A stretch of DNA of 64,000 nucleotides from Phaeobacter piscinae (GTDB taxonomy: Bacteria > Pseudomonadota > Alphaproteobacteria > Rhodobacterales > Rhodobacteraceae): the NCBI RefSeq assembly GCF_002407245.1, contig NZ_CP010685.1, forward strand, positions 4,466 through 68,465, given 5' to 3'. This document shows, piece after piece, positions 1 through 63,949 of this stretch. Made by a program: the position numbers and the translations under genes. A model generated the notes under the pieces. The model saw nothing but the letters and a program-made list of their open reading frames with translations, was not told the origin of the DNA and made no database searches. Every line of letters starts with the position of its first letter. Positions within the stretch are counted from its first letter, which is position 1.

Positions 1-1083
1 GCGCCCCTCGGCCTCGCCCTGCGGGTCCACCACCCGCACCTTGGCGCCGCCGCCAATGAGGGCCGGCACGATGGTGAGGCTCGGCGCCTCGCGCATGTCA
101 TCGGTATTGGGTTTGAAGGTGACGCCCAGCACCGCGATGGTCTTGCCGTTGAAATTGCCGTCACAGGCGTCGCGCAGCTTCTCCAGCATCCGCGCCTTGA
201 CCTCCTGATTGACCCGCATCACGGTTTCGGTGATCTGCATCGGATAGGCATGGTCCTGACCGATGCGCGCCAGCGCGGCAGTGTCCTTGGGAAAACACGA
301 CCCGCCATAGCCGGGACCGGCATGCAGGAACTTATTGCCGATGCGCCCGTCCAGCCCGATGCCACGGGCGACTTCCTTGACGTCGGATCCCACCCGCTCA
401 CAGAGGCCGGCGATTTCATTCATGAAGGTGATCTTGGTCGCCAGAAACGCATTGGCGGCATATTTGATCATCTCGGCACTTTCGAGATCGGTGGTGAGGA
501 TCGGGAAATCGCGCAGATATAATGGCCGGTAGATCTCGGCCATGACCTCAGCGGCGCGGTCGTTCTGCACGCCCACAACCACCCGGTCGGGGCGCATGAA
601 ATCATCAATCGCCGCCCCTTCGCGCAGGAACTCCGGGTTGGAGGCCACATCAAACTCCGCCGCCGGATTGGATTTGGCGATCACCTGTTTCACCTGCCGG
701 TTGGTGCCGAGGGGAACGGTGGATTTGGTGACCACCACGGTATAGCCCTGCAGGGCGGCGGCAATTTCCTCGCTGGCGGCCATCACATAGGTGAGATCGG
801 CATGACCATCGCCGCGCCGTGTTGGCGTGCCAACGGCGATGAACACCGCTTCGGCCTCGGCGACGGCGGCGGCCAGATCATCGGTAAAGGAGAGCCGGCC
901 CGCCGCCACATTGCGCGCCATCAGATCCTCCAGCCCCGGCTCATAGATCGGCACCTCACCGGCTTGTAGCCGGGCGATCTTGGCAGCGTCCTTGTCGACG
1001 CAGACCACGTCATGGCCAAAGTCGGAAAAACAGACGCCGGAGACCAATCCGACATATCCGGTGCCAATCATTGCAATGCGCAT
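1..1083 (-). CDS. ugd: UDP-glucose 6-dehydrogenase (partial, C-terminus beyond left edge)
   Basis: Oxidises UDP-glucose to UDP-glucuronate with NAD+, supplying acidic sugar for the polysaccharide. The reading frame starts at the ATG complementary to 1081-1083 and stays open to the left edge, giving 361 visible residues of an enzyme usually near 430-450. The N-terminus reads MRIAMIGTGYVGLVSG, the Rossmann NAD-binding motif of the family. The catalytic-cysteine motif GPGYGGSCFPKD is present with the cysteine at residue 263 (codon at 297-295). The epimerase that would use its product (1385-2395) lies upstream on the same strand. A large palindromic element (1207-1266) sits 124 bp upstream of the start and may control it. 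Family assignment is firm; the missing end cannot be judged. Confidence 0.95.
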   Translation of the reverse strand, partial: MRIAMIGTGYVGLVSGVCFSDFGHDVVCVDKDAAKIARLQAGEVPIYEPGLEDLMARNVAAGRLSFTDDLAAAVAEAEAVFIAVGTPTRRGDGHADLTYVMAASEEIAAALQGYTVVVTKSTVPLGTNRQVKQVIAKSNPAAEFDVASNPEFLREGAAIDDFMRPDRVVVGVQNDRAAEVMAEIYRPLYLRDFPILTTDLESAEMIKYAANAFLATKITFMNEIAGLCERVGSDVKEVARGIGLDGRIGNKFLHAGPGYGGSCFPKDTAALARIGQDHAYPMQITETVMRVNQEVKARMLEKLRDACDGNFNGKTIAVLGVTFKPNTDDMREAPSLTIVPALIGGGAKVRVVDPQGEAEGR

Positions 1084-1384
1084 GGGGGTGGTCCTTTGCT
1101 GTTGCCTCATGGCCCTCGCTTGGGGGAGGGCTTTGGATATCAGACATATACGGGCGCGCGGGGGGCGGGAACCGGAATTTTGGGCCGCTGACGGGGGTGG
1201 GCAAAATAGGTCCGGTTCGGACCAAATGTTTCGCACGCGAAACATTTGGTCAATCATGCTGACCTAATTGAAGGGGAGAGTCTTGCTGCCAATTTCACAG
1301 AAATCGGCAGGCCTGCGGCGCGCGTCTTTAGGGAAAGGTGACAGGTCAGAGATGCCTGTCGCCCCGGATTAGCCCTGCCCCGGA
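1084..1384. other. Intergenic region between lspL-like gene and ugd
   Basis: No credible coding frame. It holds the palindromic element at 1207-1266. The remaining sequence, 1267-1384 and 1084-1206, shows no clear terminator or other repeat. As both flanking genes are on the minus strand, it should carry the end of the epimerase transcript and a ugd promoter. Confidence 0.5.
1207..1266. promoter_or_regulatory. 60-bp palindromic element, copy 1 (upstream of ugd)
   Basis: The element is bounded by TAGGTC (1207-1212) and GACCTA (1261-1266). Inside is a perfect 14-bp inverted repeat, arms 1220-1233 and 1238-1251, around the four bases CACG. A smaller inverted repeat GGTCCG-GTT-CGGACC lies at 1209-1223. 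Bases 1208-1247 are identical to 63891-63930, and the 60-bp length is the same in both copies. On the minus strand TTGACC (1253-1248) is followed 17 bases later by AACATT (1230-1225), a possible promoter for ugd that the palindrome would overlap. An operator for a dimeric regulator is the simplest reading; a partition site or other protein-binding site is also possible. Confidence 0.7.
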
Positions 1385-2547: not shown

Positions 2548-3594
2548 GTGAACGAAACCTTGATCCCCGAGCCTGCGCCTCAGGCTGATATGCAGCAGGC
2601 CAATATGCAGCAAGCCGGTGCCGGACGTCTGGTGGCGGTGGTGGTCACCTACAATCGGCTGGAGAAGCTGAAGGTGACGCTGGCGCGGCTGCTGGAGAGC
2701 CCCGCTGAGGACCTGGCGGCGCTGGTGGTGGTGGACAATGCCTCCAACGATGGGACTGGTGACTGGCTGGCCGGCTGGGCGGCGGAGCATCCGCGGGTTG
2801 ATGTGATCACAAGTGCCACCAATCAAGGCGGGGCCGGGGGCTTTGCCCTGGGAATGCGCCGTGCGATGGAGGCCCATAGACCCGACTGGCTGGTGGTGAT
2901 GGATGATGATGGCCGCCCGGAACCCGGTGGGCTGGCGGCGTTTCACGCCATGGGGCAGAGCGGCGCGCTGGCCCATTGGGACGCGGTGGCGGCGGCGGTC
3001 TATTTCCCGAGCGGCGAGATCTGCGAGATGAACCGCCCTTCGCGCAATCCGTTCTGGAGCTTCGGGCATTTCCTCTCCACCGCGCGCAAAGGGCGCGATG
3101 GGTTCCATATTCCGCGCCGCGCCTATGAGGGCGGGCTGAGTGCGATTGATGTGACCTCTTTTGTGGGGTTCTTCATTTCAGCAGCGGCGGTGCGGCGGGT
3201 GGGCTACCCGGATCCCAAGCTGTTCATCTACGGCGATGATGCGCTTTATACGCTGGGGCTGAGTGCGGCGGGCGGGCGCATCTGCTTTGCCGCCGATGTG
3301 CGGTTTGAGCATGATTTCTCCACCTTCAGCAATGGCGACAGCGGCCAGCGGTTCCGGCCGCTGTGGAAGGTCTATTACCATCACCGCAATCTGCTGCTGC
3401 TGTACCGGCAGGCGGCGGGCTGGCTGTTCTGGCCGGTGCTGTTGCTGATCCTGCCCAAATGGGTGCTGAAAGTGCGCCACCACCCCGGCGTGCGCCGGGC
3501 CTATCTACGCCTGACCTGGCTGGCGGTGCGGGACGGGCTGTTGCGCCGGCTGGGGCGCAGCCACGGCGAGGTGCTGGCAGAAGCCCGCGAATAG
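2548..3594 (+). CDS. Family 2 glycosyltransferase, galactofuranosyltransferase-like
   Basis: A cytoplasmic GT-A glycosyltransferase of about 348 residues. The start chosen is GTG 2548, preceded by AGGAG at 2532-2536; an upstream TTG at 2500 in the same frame is possible. The fold begins with VAVVVTYNRLEKL, the nucleotide-sugar metal site is the DDD triplet at residues 119-121, and a second acidic pair lies in YGDDALY (residues 230-231). This DDD plus late DD layout, with NQGGAGGFALG between, is typical of GlfT-type galactofuranosyltransferases. A UDP-galactopyranose mutase at 6868 would make the donor, and a related enzyme lies at 9446. A rhamnosyltransferase role is the main alternative. Confidence 0.8.
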   Translation: MNETLIPEPAPQADMQQANMQQAGAGRLVAVVVTYNRLEKLKVTLARLLESPAEDLAALVVVDNASNDGTGDWLAGWAAEHPRVDVITSATNQGGAGGFALGMRRAMEAHRPDWLVVMDDDGRPEPGGLAAFHAMGQSGALAHWDAVAAAVYFPSGEICEMNRPSRNPFWSFGHFLSTARKGRDGFHIPRRAYEGGLSAIDVTSFVGFFISAAAVRRVGYPDPKLFIYGDDALYTLGLSAAGGRICFAADVRFEHDFSTFSNGDSGQRFRPLWKVYYHHRNLLLLYRQAAGWLFWPVLLLILPKWVLKVRHHPGVRRAYLRLTWLAVRDGLLRRLGRSHGEVLAEARE

Positions 3595-6062: not shown

Positions 6063-6719
6063 GTGATCCGGTTTGAAAATCTGACCAAGAGCTTCTGGCT
6101 CAAGGGCGAGCGGCGGGTTGTCATCGACAATCTGAACCTGACCCTGCCGACGGGGCGGTCGCTGGCGCTTCTGGGGCGCAATGGCGCGGGCAAATCCACC
6201 CTGCTGCAGCTGGTGGCGGGCACCATGCGCCCCGATCATGGTGAGATCATCTCCGACGGGTCGATCTCCTGGCCGGTGGGGCTGGCGGCGTCGTTTCACG
6301 GCGATCTGAGCGGCGCGGAAAACGTCCGCTTCATCGCGCGGATTTACGGCGTGGATACCGATGATCTGGTGGGGTTTGTGGAAGATTTTGCCGAGTTGGG
6401 CAAATTCTACCACATGCCGATGCGCAGCTATTCTTCCGGCATGCGGGCGCGGCTGACATTCGGCGCCTCCATGGGGATCAAGTTTGACACCTATCTGGTG
6501 GATGAGGTGACGGCGGTGGGCGATGCCGCCTTCAAGCGCAAAAGCCGCGATATCTTCACCGACCGGATGCGCCATTCCAGCGCCATTCTGGTCAATCATT
6601 CGATGCGCCAGCTGCGCCAGTTCTGCAATGCCGGCCTGGTGCTGGATAATGGCCGGCTGCGCTATTTCAGCGATCTGGATGAGGCCATTGCCGAGCATCA
6701 CCGCCTGATGGCGGTCTGA
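6063..6719 (+). CDS. Polysaccharide export ABC transporter ATP-binding protein (KpsT-like)
   Basis: A 218-residue nucleotide-binding subunit that powers the exporter with the permease at 3602. Walker A is GRNGAGKST (residues 38-46), the signature region is SYSSGMRARL, and Walker B is TYLVDE. The short length without the extra C-terminal domain fits KpsT (capsule type) better than Wzt of O-antigen exporters. The start is GTG 6063, which gives MIRFENLTKSFW, the usual KpsT N-terminus. It follows the KpsE-like gene by 17 bp and is probably co-transcribed. Confidence 0.92.
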   Translation: MIRFENLTKSFWLKGERRVVIDNLNLTLPTGRSLALLGRNGAGKSTLLQLVAGTMRPDHGEIISDGSISWPVGLAASFHGDLSGAENVRFIARIYGVDTDDLVGFVEDFAELGKFYHMPMRSYSSGMRARLTFGASMGIKFDTYLVDEVTAVGDAAFKRKSRDIFTDRMRHSSAILVNHSMRQLRQFCNAGLVLDNGRLRYFSDLDEAIAEHHRLMAV

Positions 6720-8129: not shown

Positions 8130-9449
8130 ATGGAGCCGATGAGCGACAAGACCGGAGCCAGACCCAAGACGCTTGTGATTCACATCGGCGACCACAAGAC
8201 CGGGACCACCACCATCCAGAACGCGCTGGCTGTGGGCAGCATTCAGCTGCATGACGCCAAGCTGCTCTACCCGGCCAAGATGAACCACAATTATCTGACC
8301 GGGTTTATCACCAGCTATCGCAAGGGCACGCCCCTGCCCAAACATCTGGAGGATCGCGACGGTCTGACAGAGGTGGCCGCCCAGATCGCGGCCTCGGATG
8401 CGGATTATGCGGTGCTGTCTGCCGAGGCGTTTGAGAATATCCCGGCGCCGGAATTTCACGATCTGGTCGAGACCTTCTTTCGCGGCTGCGCCGATCGCAT
8501 TCATATCGTGGCCTATGTGCGCCCCCATGCGCAGCGGATCCTGTCGAGCTATGCCGAGCAGATCAAGATCGGCTGGTACCGGGGCAGCATGCAGGAGTTC
8601 TTTGACCACAATCTGCAAAACGGCCGCTTTCACTACGCGCCACGTTTTGCCCAGTGGCGCCAGCTGTTCGGCGAGGATTTCACCCTGCGCCCGATGATCC
8701 GCAAGGAGCTGAAAAACGGCTCGGTGCTGGATGATTTTGCCGAGGTGGCCTTTGACGGGCGGCCCTGCACGGTGGAGGAATTCGAGCCGGAAAACCAGGC
8801 CATGACCGTGCGCGAGCTGGCGTTGATGTATTTCCTGCAAGGTAAGTTTCAGGAACAGGACCCCTGGCTGCGCCATACGCTGGGCTGGGAAGTGTCGCGC
8901 CAGCTGGACCGCTCGCGCGGCGACAGCGAGGCCAAGGTGCGCAAACTGGTGATGGCACGCGATCTGGCCGAGGCCGCCACCGCCGCCTATCGCTGCGATG
9001 CCGAGGTTATGGATGCCGAATTCTTCGGCGGCCGGCCGCTGTTGCGCAATGCGCTGCGCGACATGGAAAAACAATCCGCCCCGCGCGCCCCCTCACTGGA
9101 TCCGAGCCAGTTTTTCAGCCCCGAACATCTGCGCAACCTGACCGTCATGGCCAAGATCATCGAAGGCATGCTGGAGCGGCAGGGCAAATGGCCCTCCTAT
9201 TTCCACAGTCACCGGATCAAGGATATTGAACGGCACAAGAACGCGCGTCTGGGGCTGGATGAAAACGGCGATCCGCTGGAGCCGGAGGTGGATGCAGAGA
9301 TGCCTGCCGGATCCGAGACCGCAGCCTCTCCCGCCACCCAGAGCGCCACACCCACATCTGACACGCCGGCCCAGACACCACCGTCACCGCCCGCGCGCGT
9401 CCTCGCAGATGCCGCCGCAGGCGCTGCGCCACAGAAGGATCAGCCATGA
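8130..9449 (+). CDS. Sulfotransferase-like protein 1
   Basis: A 439-residue protein with the PAPS-binding P-loop-like motif HIGDHKTGTTTIQ near residues 18-30, as in bacterial carbohydrate sulfotransferases. The probable 3'-phosphate binding region follows around VAYVRPHAQRILSSY. The last 60 residues are rich in Ala, Pro, Thr and Ser and look disordered. It lies between glf and a glycosyltransferase and overlaps the latter by four bases (ATGA), so translation is probably coupled. It probably adds sulfate to the polysaccharide or an intermediate; the acceptor is unknown. No PAPS-synthesis genes are in the window. Confidence 0.78.
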   Translation: MEPMSDKTGARPKTLVIHIGDHKTGTTTIQNALAVGSIQLHDAKLLYPAKMNHNYLTGFITSYRKGTPLPKHLEDRDGLTEVAAQIAASDADYAVLSAEAFENIPAPEFHDLVETFFRGCADRIHIVAYVRPHAQRILSSYAEQIKIGWYRGSMQEFFDHNLQNGRFHYAPRFAQWRQLFGEDFTLRPMIRKELKNGSVLDDFAEVAFDGRPCTVEEFEPENQAMTVRELALMYFLQGKFQEQDPWLRHTLGWEVSRQLDRSRGDSEAKVRKLVMARDLAEAATAAYRCDAEVMDAEFFGGRPLLRNALRDMEKQSAPRAPSLDPSQFFSPEHLRNLTVMAKIIEGMLERQGKWPSYFHSHRIKDIERHKNARLGLDENGDPLEPEVDAEMPAGSETAASPATQSATPTSDTPAQTPPSPPARVLADAAAGAAPQKDQP

Positions 9450-60593: not shown

Positions 60594-62351
60594 ATGAAGA
60601 CGAAACGGGTCTTTGACGGACAACGGGGTGTCATCACCTCAATTTTTGTAGCGAGTATCTTTGTTAACCTGCTTGTCCTGACAGCGCCGCTGTACATGTT
60701 GCAATTGTTTGCCCGGGTCATGGCTTCGGGCAGCATGCCAACCTTGATTGCTTTGACCACCGGCGCGGCGATCGCGCTGGTGTTCTTTTTTCTCTTTGAT
60801 GTCATTCGCCAACGCCTCGTCGCCCGCCTCGGCTCGCGGCTGGAGGCGCGGCTGAGCCCGGCGGTGCTGCAGGGCATGATCAGCGGCAACCTGCCTGCAA
60901 AGCTGCGCACGGCGGAACCGATCCGCGACATTCAGGATCTGCGCGGCTTTGTCACCAGCCCGGTGTTCATCGCGCTTCTGGATGCGCCCTGGTCGCTGCT
61001 GTTCATCGCGCTGATCTTTGTGTTCAGCCCGGTTCTGGGGCTGGTCTCGGTGGCGGGGCTGCTGGTCCTGCTGGGGCTGGGGGTGATGAGTGAGCTGATG
61101 GGGCGGGCCCCGGGCAAGACCTCTGAGGAGGCCGCTCGCGAAACCAATGCCGCGGTTGAGGAAATGATGGTCAATGCCGAGATCATCCACGCCATGGGCA
61201 AGACCTCTGCCCAGATCGGCCGCTGGCGCGGACGCGCCTTTACCGCGATCCTCTTTGGCACCTTGGTCACCGACCGGGTTGCGCTGATGACCTCGCTGGC
61301 CAAGACCGTGCGCATGGGGCTGCAGATCGCGGTGCTGGGCGTGGGCGTGGTCCTGGTGATCAACAACCAGCTGACACCAGGTCTGATGATTGCCTCCTCG
61401 ATCCTTCTGGGCCGGGCGGCAGCGCCGGTGGAGCAATCCATCGCCGGCTGGCGCGCCCTGCTGAAGGCGCGCAGCGCCATGGAGCGGCTGAACCTGCTGC
61501 TGGCCCATGCCGAGGACACCAGCGACCGGATGGAACTGCCCGAACCCAGCGGGCGGCTGTCGGTGGAAAATGCCACCGTGGTGCTGCCGGGGCGGCAGGA
61601 TCCGCTGCTGCTGGATGTTACCCTGTCGCTGCAACCGGGTCATGCGCTGGGGCTGATCGGCCCGTCGGGGGCTGGCAAGACCACGCTGGCCCGCGCGCTG
61701 GTAGGGCTGCAACCGCTGGTGCGGGGCCATGTGCGCATTGATGATGCCGCCCTCACCGATTGGGACCCTGAACAGATCGGGCGCCACATCGGCTTTCTGC
61801 CGCAGCAGGTGGAGCTGTTCCGCGGCACCATTGCCGAAAACATCGCCATGATGGATCCGAGCGCCAAACCCTCGGATGTGGTGGCCGCTGCCAAACTGGC
61901 GCGGGTGCATGAGCTGATCCTGGCCCTGCCCGGTGGCTATAACGCCGAGGTCGGCCCGCGCGGCAGCTTCCTCTCCGCAGGCCAGCGCCAGCGGATCGGT
62001 CTGGCACGCGCCTTCTTTGGGGAGCGCAAGCTGATCGTGCTGGATGAACCCAATGCCAACCTCGATCCTGAAGGCGAAGAGGCGCTGGCCGCCGCCATTG
62101 AGGAGGCCTGCGCCCGTGGCGCCATCGTGGTGGTGGTGACCCATCGGCTCAACCTGTTGCGCCGGGTCAGCCATGCCGCGCTGGTGCAGGAGGGGCGCAT
62201 CGCCCGCTTTGGCGAGGCCCGCCAGATCATCGAGGCCGCCGCCCAGCCGATGAGCCGGACACAGAGCGATCCCAAAGTGACCAATTTGACGCCGCACCGT
62301 GAGGCCCGGACCGGGGCTGACGCCAGTGTCGCAGAAGGAGCCCAGTCATGA
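60594..62351 (+). CDS. Type I secretion ABC transporter permease/ATPase 2 (PrtD-like)
   Basis: A 585-residue exporter for the RTX protein encoded immediately upstream. The membrane domain starts IFVASIFVNLLVLTAPLYML, and the ATPase has Walker A GPSGAGKTT (residues 356-364), signature SAGQRQRIGLARAFF and Walker B LIVLDEPNANLD. No peptidase-like N-terminal domain. It lacks the Gln/Pro-rich tail of the first exporter. The signature has Ala for the first Gly of LSGGQ, seen in some family members. The adaptor gene overlaps by four bases. Confidence 0.93.
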   Translation: MKTKRVFDGQRGVITSIFVASIFVNLLVLTAPLYMLQLFARVMASGSMPTLIALTTGAAIALVFFFLFDVIRQRLVARLGSRLEARLSPAVLQGMISGNLPAKLRTAEPIRDIQDLRGFVTSPVFIALLDAPWSLLFIALIFVFSPVLGLVSVAGLLVLLGLGVMSELMGRAPGKTSEEAARETNAAVEEMMVNAEIIHAMGKTSAQIGRWRGRAFTAILFGTLVTDRVALMTSLAKTVRMGLQIAVLGVGVVLVINNQLTPGLMIASSILLGRAAAPVEQSIAGWRALLKARSAMERLNLLLAHAEDTSDRMELPEPSGRLSVENATVVLPGRQDPLLLDVTLSLQPGHALGLIGPSGAGKTTLARALVGLQPLVRGHVRIDDAALTDWDPEQIGRHIGFLPQQVELFRGTIAENIAMMDPSAKPSDVVAAAKLARVHELILALPGGYNAEVGPRGSFLSAGQRQRIGLARAFFGERKLIVLDEPNANLDPEGEEALAAAIEEACARGAIVVVVTHRLNLLRRVSHAALVQEGRIARFGEARQIIEAAAQPMSRTQSDPKVTNLTPHREARTGADASVAEGAQS

Positions 62352-63751
62352 GCCGCAGCGACAGCAGAGACCTGGTGCCCCGCAGGGGCAGCGAGATTGA
62401 CATGAGCCGGGGTTTTCAGGACCTGATGCCCGATGGCTTCACCCTGCCCCGCACCCCGCCCACCCGCGTGCGCCAGTTGGTGCTGTGGATGCTGGTCTGC
62501 GGCTTTGGCCTGTTTGGCGGTCTGGTGTTCTGGGCCACCAAAGCCGAGCTGACCAGCGCCGTGGTGGCTGCGGGGGAATTTACCGTGGCGGGCGACCGGC
62601 TCAGCGTGCAGCATCTGGAGGGCGGCATCGTCCGCGAGATCAATGTGGCCGAGGGCGACATGGTGGCCGAGGGTGAGGTGATCGCGGTGCTGGACGGGCG
62701 CCGGATGCGCGCCAGCCACGCCATTCTGACCAGCCAGATGGCCAGCCTTCTGGCCCAGCAGGCGCGGCTGCAGGCCGAACTGGCCGAGACCGATCAGATC
62801 GAGATCCCGGCAGAGCTGGACCAGCTGATGGCCGCAGATCCGCAGCTGATCTCCCTGTTTGAGGTGCAGCGCGATGTCTTTGCCAGCAACCGCGCGCTGT
62901 ATGAGGGGCAGGTGCAGATCCTGCGCGACCGGATTTCTCAGCTGGGCAAGCAGCTCGACGGGCGGCGGGCGCGGATCACCGCTATCGAGGATCAGCTGAC
63001 CCTGATCAAAGGCGAGGTCGCCGATCTGCACAAGCTCTATGAAAAAGGGCTGGTGCCCAAAACCCGGCTCAGCGACCGGCAGCTGCAGGAAACCGGGCTG
63101 ATGGGCACCTTTGGCGCGCTGGAAAGCGACAGCGAGAATATCCAGGTGCGCATCGCCGAGACCGAAGAACGCATCCTGCAGGTGCACCGCGATACGGTGA
63201 ACCGGATTTCCAGCGAAACCCAGCTGGTGCAGGAACGCATTCTGGATCTGCGCCAGCGGCTGGATGCGGCGGAGGATGTGCTGGAGCGCCAGACCATCCG
63301 CGCACCGCAGGCCGGCCGGGTGGTGGAACTCTCCATCAACACCCTGGGCCAGGTGCTGGACCCCGGCGAGAATGTGCTGGAGCTGGTGCCCTCGGGCAGC
63401 GATCTGATTGTCGAAACCCGCGTCTCGCCCACCGACATTGACGAGGTGGTGACCGGCGGGCAGGCCCGGGTGCAGCTCACCGCCTATAGTTTCCGCTCCA
63501 CCCCGCCGGTGAAAGGTGAGGTGGTGATGGTGGCCGCTGACAGTATCGCCGATCTCAACAGCGGCATTCCCTATTACCGCGTTCACATCCGCATTCCGCC
63601 CGAAGAGCTGGCGGCGCTGCCCAATGTCAAAACCCTGCCCGGCATGCCCGCGCAGGCGATGATCGAGACAGGCCGGCAGACATTGGCGGATTACCTGCTC
63701 AGCCCGGTGCTGCGCAGCATGTCGAACGCCTTGAGAGAGGGGAGTGGCTGA
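62348..63751 (+). CDS. Type I secretion periplasmic adaptor 2 (HlyD family)
   Basis: A 467-residue membrane fusion protein. One N-terminal membrane segment (about residues 39-57) is followed by the lipoyl half-motif LSVQHLEGGIVREINVAEGD, a long coiled coil, and RQTIRAPQAGRVVEL for the second half. It forms a secretion pair with the upstream ATPase. An outer-membrane TolC partner must come from elsewhere in the genome. A terminator follows at 63824-63853. Confidence 0.93.
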   Translation: MSRSDSRDLVPRRGSEIDMSRGFQDLMPDGFTLPRTPPTRVRQLVLWMLVCGFGLFGGLVFWATKAELTSAVVAAGEFTVAGDRLSVQHLEGGIVREINVAEGDMVAEGEVIAVLDGRRMRASHAILTSQMASLLAQQARLQAELAETDQIEIPAELDQLMAADPQLISLFEVQRDVFASNRALYEGQVQILRDRISQLGKQLDGRRARITAIEDQLTLIKGEVADLHKLYEKGLVPKTRLSDRQLQETGLMGTFGALESDSENIQVRIAETEERILQVHRDTVNRISSETQLVQERILDLRQRLDAAEDVLERQTIRAPQAGRVVELSINTLGQVLDPGENVLELVPSGSDLIVETRVSPTDIDEVVTGGQARVQLTAYSFRSTPPVKGEVVMVAADSIADLNSGIPYYRVHIRIPPEELAALPNVKTLPGMPAQAMIETGRQTLADYLLSPVLRSMSNALREGSG

Positions 63752-63889: not shown

Positions 63890-63949
63890 TAGGTCCGGTT
63901 CGGACCAAATGTTTCGCACGCGAAACATTTAGACAGGAATGCTGACCTA
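63890..63949. promoter_or_regulatory. 60-bp palindromic element, copy 2 (right end)
   Basis: It has the same architecture as 1207-1266: TAGGTC (63890-63895), the GGTCCG/CGGACC inverted repeat, the ATGTTTCG-CACG-CGAAACAT palindrome, and GACCTA (63944-63949). Bases 63891-63930 are identical to 1208-1247, while the 14 bases between the core and GACCTA differ at several places. The inner palindrome is shorter here, as AGAC replaces GGTC. Both copies read the same way on the plus strand. It follows a terminator, so it probably serves a gene or function beyond the right edge. Confidence 0.7.

Follow-up and report, generated by a model that had tools for sequence, protein, structure and literature searches.

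Why does this locus carry the same 60-bp element near both of its ends, and which protein would recognise it? The window, i.e. the whole stretch of 64,000 nucleotides analysed here, corresponds to C5:4466-68465 of a 68,465-base contig and represents most of a Phaeobacter RepA-type plasmid, in a genome of eight contigs (4,129,511 bases) in which C1 (3.6 Mb) was treated as the chromosome. The named relatives of this plasmid, e.g. pPGA1_65 of P. inhibens DSM 17395, likewise belong to Phaeobacter and measure 65-71 kb. A sequence-only reading of the window had anticipated a circular plasmid of about 65 kb, which comes close in size and agrees with pPGA1_65 being recorded as circular; the circularity of C5 itself was assumed, and the spacing of the elements across the contig ends depends on this join. 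Our comparisons argue that the 18-bp core of the element is very probably a parS site and that further copies on the Phaeobacter chromosome are probably sites for the plasmid-encoded ParB, a reading to which we give a probability of about 0.8; ParB may be loaded there onto the nucleoid. The features involved are as follows.

1207..1266, + strand: 60-bp element copy 1, upstream of ugd
63890..63949, + strand: 60-bp element copy 2, between the HlyD-type gene and repA
1227..1244 (C5:5692-5709), + strand: predicted parS core 18-mer copy 1, TGTTTCGC-AC-GCGAAACA
63910..63927 (C5:68375-68392), + strand: predicted parS core 18-mer copy 2
1..1083, - strand: ugd (UDP-glucose dehydrogenase family), window part of the gene, name taken from the pPGA1_65 counterpart
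62348..63751, + strand: HlyD-family gene for a type I secretion adaptor, name taken from the corresponding neighbour in pPGA1_65
C5:1-1014, - strand: repA, RPA family PF10134 (E 8.6e-102), outside the window
C5:1511-2926, + strand: parA, ParA-type ATPase, outside the window
C5:3030-4157, + strand: parB, ParB-like protein of 375 aa, outside the window

Both 60-bp copies, with their TAGGTC/GACCTA ends, lie on the same strand and were recovered where the sequence-only reading had placed them. They agree at 55/60 positions, with unbroken identity over the first 41 and over the last 11; the run of 40 identical bases that had been claimed is thus borne out (41 in a row), and the 14 drifted bases shrink to 5 changes confined to 8 bases. 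The kernel of both copies is an 18-mer, TGTTTCGC-NN-GCGAAACA, with an AC centre in the window, around which stand smaller inverted repeats of the form GGTC(C/A)G...C(T/G)GACC. Copy 1, for example, consists of a left short inverted repeat, TAGGTCCG-GTT-CGGACCA, the central core and a right arm ending GCTGACCTA. The core occurs twice in the window without mismatch, and the core pattern, searched on both strands with up to 3 mismatches allowed, is matched four times, by both sites read on either strand, for a mean of 0.04 expected from dinucleotide shuffles. The AC-centred 18-mer had no exact match in viral contigs, a result that speaks against a phage origin of the core.

Copy 1 lies ~124 bp from the ugd start codon, and copy 2 is adjoined on the window side by the HlyD-family gene, with the repA stop ~50 bp further on, provided that the contig ends join. 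The repA, parA and parB genes occupy the 4.5 kb of C5 beyond the window, and across the contig ends (if joined) the cores are 5,782 bp apart with repA-parA-parB-ugd between them, so that the two copies do bracket the replication region that the sequence-only reading had supposed to be out of sight. In pPGA1_65, one site lies behind repA and the other between ugd and its other neighbour. As in ParABS systems, a gene for a ParA-type Walker ATPase adjoins that for ParB, parA being immediately upstream of parB; ParA matches the profiles AAA_31 (6.8e-30) and TIGR03453 (7e-60, below that model's cut-off), and, as regards the N-terminal ParB/Srx domain expected of a type I system, the plasmid ParB matches PF02195 (E 0.0069) and TIGR03454 (8.4e-17), both under the curated cut-offs. 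The stretches GLISGxRRxxA and MVEENExR are invariant in 17 aligned ParB homologs, and we take them to be akin to CTP motifs.

Homologs of the plasmid ParB were sought in 149 family genomes (one per genus, except two Phaeobacter), and the DNA around the best 30 was inspected. The motif TGTTTCGC-NN-GCGAAACA (at most one arm mismatch) is present within 1.5 kb in 26 of these 30 loci, at 200 bp or less in 23 of the 26, against a mean of 0.13 of 30 loci for control palindromes with shuffled arms (200 shuffles). Four loci gave no match: L182 and L183 are Phaeobacter itself, with the site just beyond the fetched flank, L192 is a cut contig, and L201 (G107:C5) harbors four copies of a 17-mer, TGTTTCGC-[A/T]-GCGAAACA, with a 1-bp spacer instead. 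The distance of 1.5 kb between core and parB on the Phaeobacter plasmid is greater than in most relatives. Eleven further ParB-homolog loci (L291 left out) comprise four with a site and seven without, the latter being four Phaeobacter loci whose site is 1.5-1.6 kb off and outside the flank, one locus with a site 2.9 kb away and two encoding ParBs of 40-41% identity. Within the source genome, three other contigs that encode a ParB recognised by Pfam (C2, C3 and C4) served as a control, and no core site was found on them; the ParB encoded on C4 (L179, G000:C4; 44% identical) has a nearby GGGTTTCGCGACGAAACCC with other spacing. Arms and spacer thus seem to vary between related ParBs, and the spacer of such site variants may act as a compatibility code. 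In four named plasmids that were chosen rather than sampled, Ruegeria pSD20, the Sulfitobacter W027 plasmid, Roseovarius pTHAF8_c and the Leisingera M527 plasmid, the site is within ~200 bp of parB. The motif therefore marks the replication/partition module of RepA-type plasmids across many genera, and the relatives have their palindromic site near parAB, as expected for ParABS. Because the motif lies beside 26/30 ParB homologs and shuffled palindromes beside 0.13/30, the 18-bp core is very probably the parS (centromere) of the plasmid's own ParABS system, and the suggestion of a partition site in the sequence-only reading finds strong support.

The reverse approach, in which at least 119 stretches were fetched from the genome collection for the exact 18-mer (the site being present by construction), gave a ParB homolog in 22 of the 119 listed stretches, with the site at most 400 bp from ParB in 21 of them and 875 bp away in the one exception (L060); L065 and L086, both among the 22, appear to be a single sequence represented twice. 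An exact 18-mer is present in 15 non-Phaeobacter genomes, in 8 of which the site is at most 400 bp from a ParB homolog. Exact 18-mers within coding sequence (L075, L084, L098, L111, L123 and L128) were set aside as probable coding coincidence; the conserved gene concerned is presumably prephenate dehydratase, with a reading frame over the 18-mer of FRVRNIPAALYKAMGGFATNGVNM in L075 and L128. These were found among the 80 of 119 listed stretches that were inspected, possibly with more elsewhere, and were retained in the count of 15 genomes and in that of 35/149 given below. The 18-mer was also seen in records labelled as unrelated, namely Vreelandella (L069, L115, L140), Burkholderiaceae (L083) and Campylobacteraceae (L102), and likewise in Bacteroidales (L133), Nocardioides (L158) and Selenomonas (L171) records; given the size of the collection, part of these matches in unrelated bacteria will be chance. 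Two of the exact Vreelandella matches (L069:4589-4606 and L115:7738-7755) have identical surroundings. Five cores are clustered within ~600 bp in each of two stretches, L210 (G015:C1) and L143, either at a ParB homolog or next to one. At L076:6790-6807, L121:7127-7144 and L138:592-609, the core is directly followed by TATTATGTTAAAT, the hosts being one Loktanella contig and, twice, a contig with a close ParB homolog; TATTATGTTAAAT resembles what we take to be the XerD arm of a dif site, and a parS-dif composite is possible.

Sites and ParB also co-occur at the level of genomes. Exact-arm sites are present in 35/149 family genomes, i.e. in 29 of the 41 with a strong ParB homolog against 6 of the 108 others (Fisher p ~1e-15, uncorrected for kinship; strong being at least 200 bits, a cut chosen after the table had been seen, at the gap from 203 to 170). 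Seven of the 12 strong-ParB genomes without an exact site have a one-mismatch site beside ParB. Of the site-bearing genomes without a strong ParB (G076, G091, G099, G106, G108 and G119), G091 has a ParB match of 166 bits, and no ParB is matched at E 1e-4 in G106 or G108, each of which has three sites; sites can therefore exist without a detected ParB, which may reflect a lost plasmid, a missing contig or another reader. The G108 sites (L310, L311, L312) are a candidate case of recent plasmid loss. In the genus of G035, ParB is found in 5/6 genomes and sites in exactly the same five, G179 (99% complete) having neither; G035 itself harbors 14 sites on a 3.79-Mb contig plus one beside parB on its C3. 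On the other hand, at least seven genomes (G025, G038, G043, G067, G086, G110 and G138) have a single exact site, beside ParB, indicating that chromosomal copies are dispensable for partition. ParB homologs in G038, G148 and G015 are encoded on contigs of 0.66-2.2 Mb, so the protein is not always small-plasmid-borne. Contig size served to assign sites to chromosome or plasmid in the genomes without named replicons. When the C5 ParB was used as a query in its own genome, matches were confined to C5, C4 and C2. A Pfam ParB_N search of C1 returned one protein, beside the canonical parS; because the same search also missed the C5 ParB, a divergent chromosomal reader may have escaped it.

Beyond the plasmid pair, the chromosome of the source genome carries 11 exact copies of the core, giving a genome total of 13, with none at exactly one mismatch; at 2-3 mismatches there are 3 places beyond the second strands of exact sites, and a reversed control pattern gives 2. 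The sequence-only reading had held that many copies scattered through the chromosome would point to a repeat family, and such copies are literally there, but they do not behave as neutral repeats. Core copies are present in 7/7 Phaeobacter genomes, with 9-13 per genome (NN pattern), and flank comparison sorts them into 11 chromosomal and 2 plasmid ortholog groups, leaving only L242 and L255 outside every group. Seven of the chromosomal groups are represented in all 7 genomes, two in six and two in five, each genome having 8-11 of the 11 chromosomal sites at orthologous positions. A close ParB homolog is encoded in 6/7 of these genomes; in G153, a 92% complete draft in which 8 of the 9 sites belong to chromosomal ortholog groups, the only ParB is 41% identical. 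Over the 71 chromosomal copies in the 7 genomes, with 16 arm positions each, there is one substitution in 1136 positions. Pairwise comparisons are identical at 3147/3152 arm positions (0.998), at 6565/7880 positions of the adjacent 20-bp flanks (0.83) and at 9352/15760 positions 21-60 bp away (0.59, a value lowered by indels because the comparison was gapless); parts of the nearer flank, namely the GGTC/GACC repeats, are likewise well conserved. The earlier claim that the element is more conserved than surrounding DNA accordingly holds between species. Groups common to 5-7 of 7 genomes, with frozen arms, do not fit a mobile element of the REP/MITE type, for which variable positions among close relatives and decaying copies would be expected.

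One chromosomal core falls inside pyrC (L014:1501-1518, within an ORF at 335-1645 on the - strand), where the element forms a 12-residue in-frame stretch in all 7 Phaeobacter genomes, at a gap in the two solved dihydroorotases aligned. The nine codons over the core are identical in 7/7 genomes although synonymous choices exist, and the surrounding codons vary. The 10 intergenic chromosomal sites are divided between convergent (4), divergent (3) and tandem (3) gene pairs, as read from open frames rather than from annotation. Neighbouring genes, named by reading, include pncB, pyrC, ruvB, aroC, an ABC-F gene, sulP-like and glpD-like genes and others, with no obvious common function, PyrC alone having been checked against solved homologs. 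Together, the codon freeze in pyrC and the mixed gene orientations indicate that it is the DNA that is conserved, apparently without a tie to promoters.

The flanks of the sites fall into several families that differ between lineages. In five genomes (G000, G035, G092, G181 and G182), chromosomal flanks resemble those of the resident plasmid site, with mean identities of 0.48-0.58 and 0.27-0.28 after shuffling, and the same chromosomal flanks score 0.22-0.38 against ParB-linked sites of other genomes, apart from two exceptions: G000, G181 and G182 share one common flank family (0.45-0.52), and G035 scores 0.49 against G092. These cross-genome scores make the plasmid-chromosome likeness one of families and not of single genomes. 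The likeness is absent or weak in G133 (0.36) and G131 (0.33), with G005 at 0.41. The centre dinucleotide of the chromosomal sites equals that of the ParB-linked site in 7/8 genomes compared, G035 being mixed, and six of the seven agreeing genomes share the common GC centre. In Phaeobacter, the centre is AC/GT in 79/82 grouped copies, and its orientation relative to the flanks flips in up to 7/13 ortholog groups, two of which rest on G153 alone, where flanks are far diverged; other genera have symmetric GC or AT centres. A replication-linked orientation of the asymmetric centre, suggested by 9/11 sites, was dropped in view of these flips between orthologs and of the symmetric centres elsewhere. 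In most sites of G035 and several of G092 (L257-L260, L269, L274, L278, L282, L297-L302 and L313-L320), a second box like GATCAAGGGCTT stands beside the core, unlike the TAGGTC/GACCTA hairpins of Phaeobacter. In five of the 119 listed stretches, none of them labelled Phaeobacter, the gene next to the site is one that also adjoins a Phaeobacter chromosomal site, as read from alignments (L068 and L110, assigned to the family only, L125 Roseobacter, L129 Sulfitobacter and L168 Tritonibacter), which suggests that some positions are older than the genus or have been hit repeatedly.

How, then, are the chromosomal copies to be explained? They are probably read by the plasmid ParB and under selection, to judge from their distribution and their frozen arms. 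That they are instead a passive dispersed repeat, made of parS-bearing elements once copied from the plasmid and now functionless, would account for the flanks that resemble the resident plasmid site in G000, G035, G092, G181 and G182 and for flank families that change from lineage to lineage, but such a repeat should decay and leave many cores with 1-3 changes, whereas the source genome has 13 exact cores and none with one mismatch. A single arm change in 1136 chromosomal positions while flanks diverge, pyrC codons frozen over the element and variable around it, and flanks hardly common in G133 and G131 make this account improbable. It is also unlikely that the chromosomal copies are operators or silencers at which bound plasmid ParB alters neighbouring transcription: the Pseudomonas aeruginosa ParB can repress promoters near parS, according to the portion of that study available (PMC5521831), and promoters could be affected from the three divergent and three tandem intergenic positions, but 4/10 intergenic sites are read as convergent, one more lies inside coding sequence, and the neighbouring genes lack an obvious common function.

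The same convergent sites weigh against the proposal of an operator through which a LuxR-type or another local regulator would control ugd and the secretion genes. The sequence-only reading had entertained a shared LuxR-type regulator, and copy 1 does stand ~124 bp upstream of the ugd start; however, the sites of relatives adjoin parB or repA while their other neighbours differ, which, with four of ten intergenic chromosomal sites convergent and a further one in pyrC, renders this proposal highly improbable. A crossover site for a serine recombinase, with palindromic arms around an asymmetric 2-bp centre, would be suggested by the AC/GT centre of 79/82 grouped copies and its flips in up to 7/13 groups, yet two transitions suffice for a flip without recombination, the centres of other genera are symmetric (GC or AT), a 1-bp spacer occurs at one locus, and the linkage seen, in searches directed at ParB genes, is to parB; we regard this as extremely improbable. 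Loading of ParB on the nucleoid is favoured over transcriptional effects and over passive repeats.

According to the favoured reading, a ParB dimer would read the arms TGTTTCGC and GCGAAACA across the 2-bp spacer and, with the ParA ATPase, place plasmid copies in both daughter cells. By analogy with known ParABS systems, ParB dimers would load at parS as CTP clamps and then spread, and the ParB-parS complex would be moved by ParA on the nucleoid. The chromosomal cores would most likely load ParB on the nucleoid as well, so that plasmid and chromosome would be physically or dynamically linked, which suggests that a plasmid segregation protein acts on the chromosome too. It is possible, at somewhat less than even odds, that the host has adopted the plasmid ParAB as a second system for organising its chromosome, ParB loading at ~11 dedicated, old parS sites on the Phaeobacter chromosome, and on those of several other Rhodobacteraceae, with a biofilm plasmid and the host chromosome segregated or positioned together. 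Anchoring or organising the nucleoid is a tentative and rather doubtful assignment for the role of these sites. The predicted parS of RepA-type plasmids of marine Rhodobacteraceae provides a handle on compatibility groups and, if the reading is true, plasmid centromeres kept by selection at fixed chromosomal places would imply that such segregation proteins naturally act on the chromosome of the host as well. P. inhibens DSM 17395 has reportedly been cured of its 65-kb plasmid (Frank et al. 2015), so chromosomal effects of ParB loss could be measured.

Among known systems, the canonical chromosomal parS is TGTTTCACGTGAAACA; the core shares its outer half-site (TGTTTC/GAAACA) but differs by one arm base, A to G, and by 2 bp inserted at the centre. 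The core is not this site, since the canonical motif occurs elsewhere on the chromosome, as two exact copies 1.9 kb apart beside the chromosomal parB. Noc (nucleoid-occlusion) sites resemble the arrangement predicted here in being short, scattered palindromes that a ParB-family protein recognises, whereas no Noc-like chromosomal gene was seen in the Pfam ParB_N search. The parS sites of Rhodobacterales repABC/ParABS plasmids are, in the parts of the sources available, short inverted repeats beside replication/partition genes, specific to ParB/RepB compatibility groups and with a few distant copies on the same replicon (PMC5613091, PMC9040568). The core is alike in form and placement but has TGTTTCGC/GCGAAACA arms, a 2-bp spacer and chromosomal copies, its replicon has an RPA-family initiator (PF10134) in place of a repC replicase, and it differs from the RepABC-1 and -2 palindromes, given in the available part of one source as 14-bp repeats such as TTAACAG/CTGTTAA (PMC5613091). 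In Pseudomonas aeruginosa, scattered parS and half-parS sites of ParB are described in the accessible sections of two reports (PMC10419367, PMC4368675), one of which raises as a question whether half-parS sites retain ParB on the nucleoid (PMC10419367). Many extra ParB sites over the chromosome are common to both cases, but that ParB is chromosomal, whereas the only candidate reader found here is plasmid-encoded. The core motif had no match in published text, a search beyond which most subscription papers lie, and the literature on roseobacter plasmid palindromes and plasmid ParB, in the portions available, yielded no report of a plasmid ParB with sites dispersed over a chromosome. Of the precedents seen, SGI1 comes closest: its parS-like sites, in the portion of the report available, hijack the IncC plasmid ParABS by binding the plasmid ParB, with two copies on one integrative element destabilising the plasmid (PMC10954446). 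In both cases non-plasmid DNA carries copies of a plasmid's parS, binding by the plasmid ParB being predicted here; unlike the SGI1 mimics, however, the Phaeobacter sites number ~11, lie at conserved chromosome positions and are accompanied by a close ParB homolog in 6/7 genomes.
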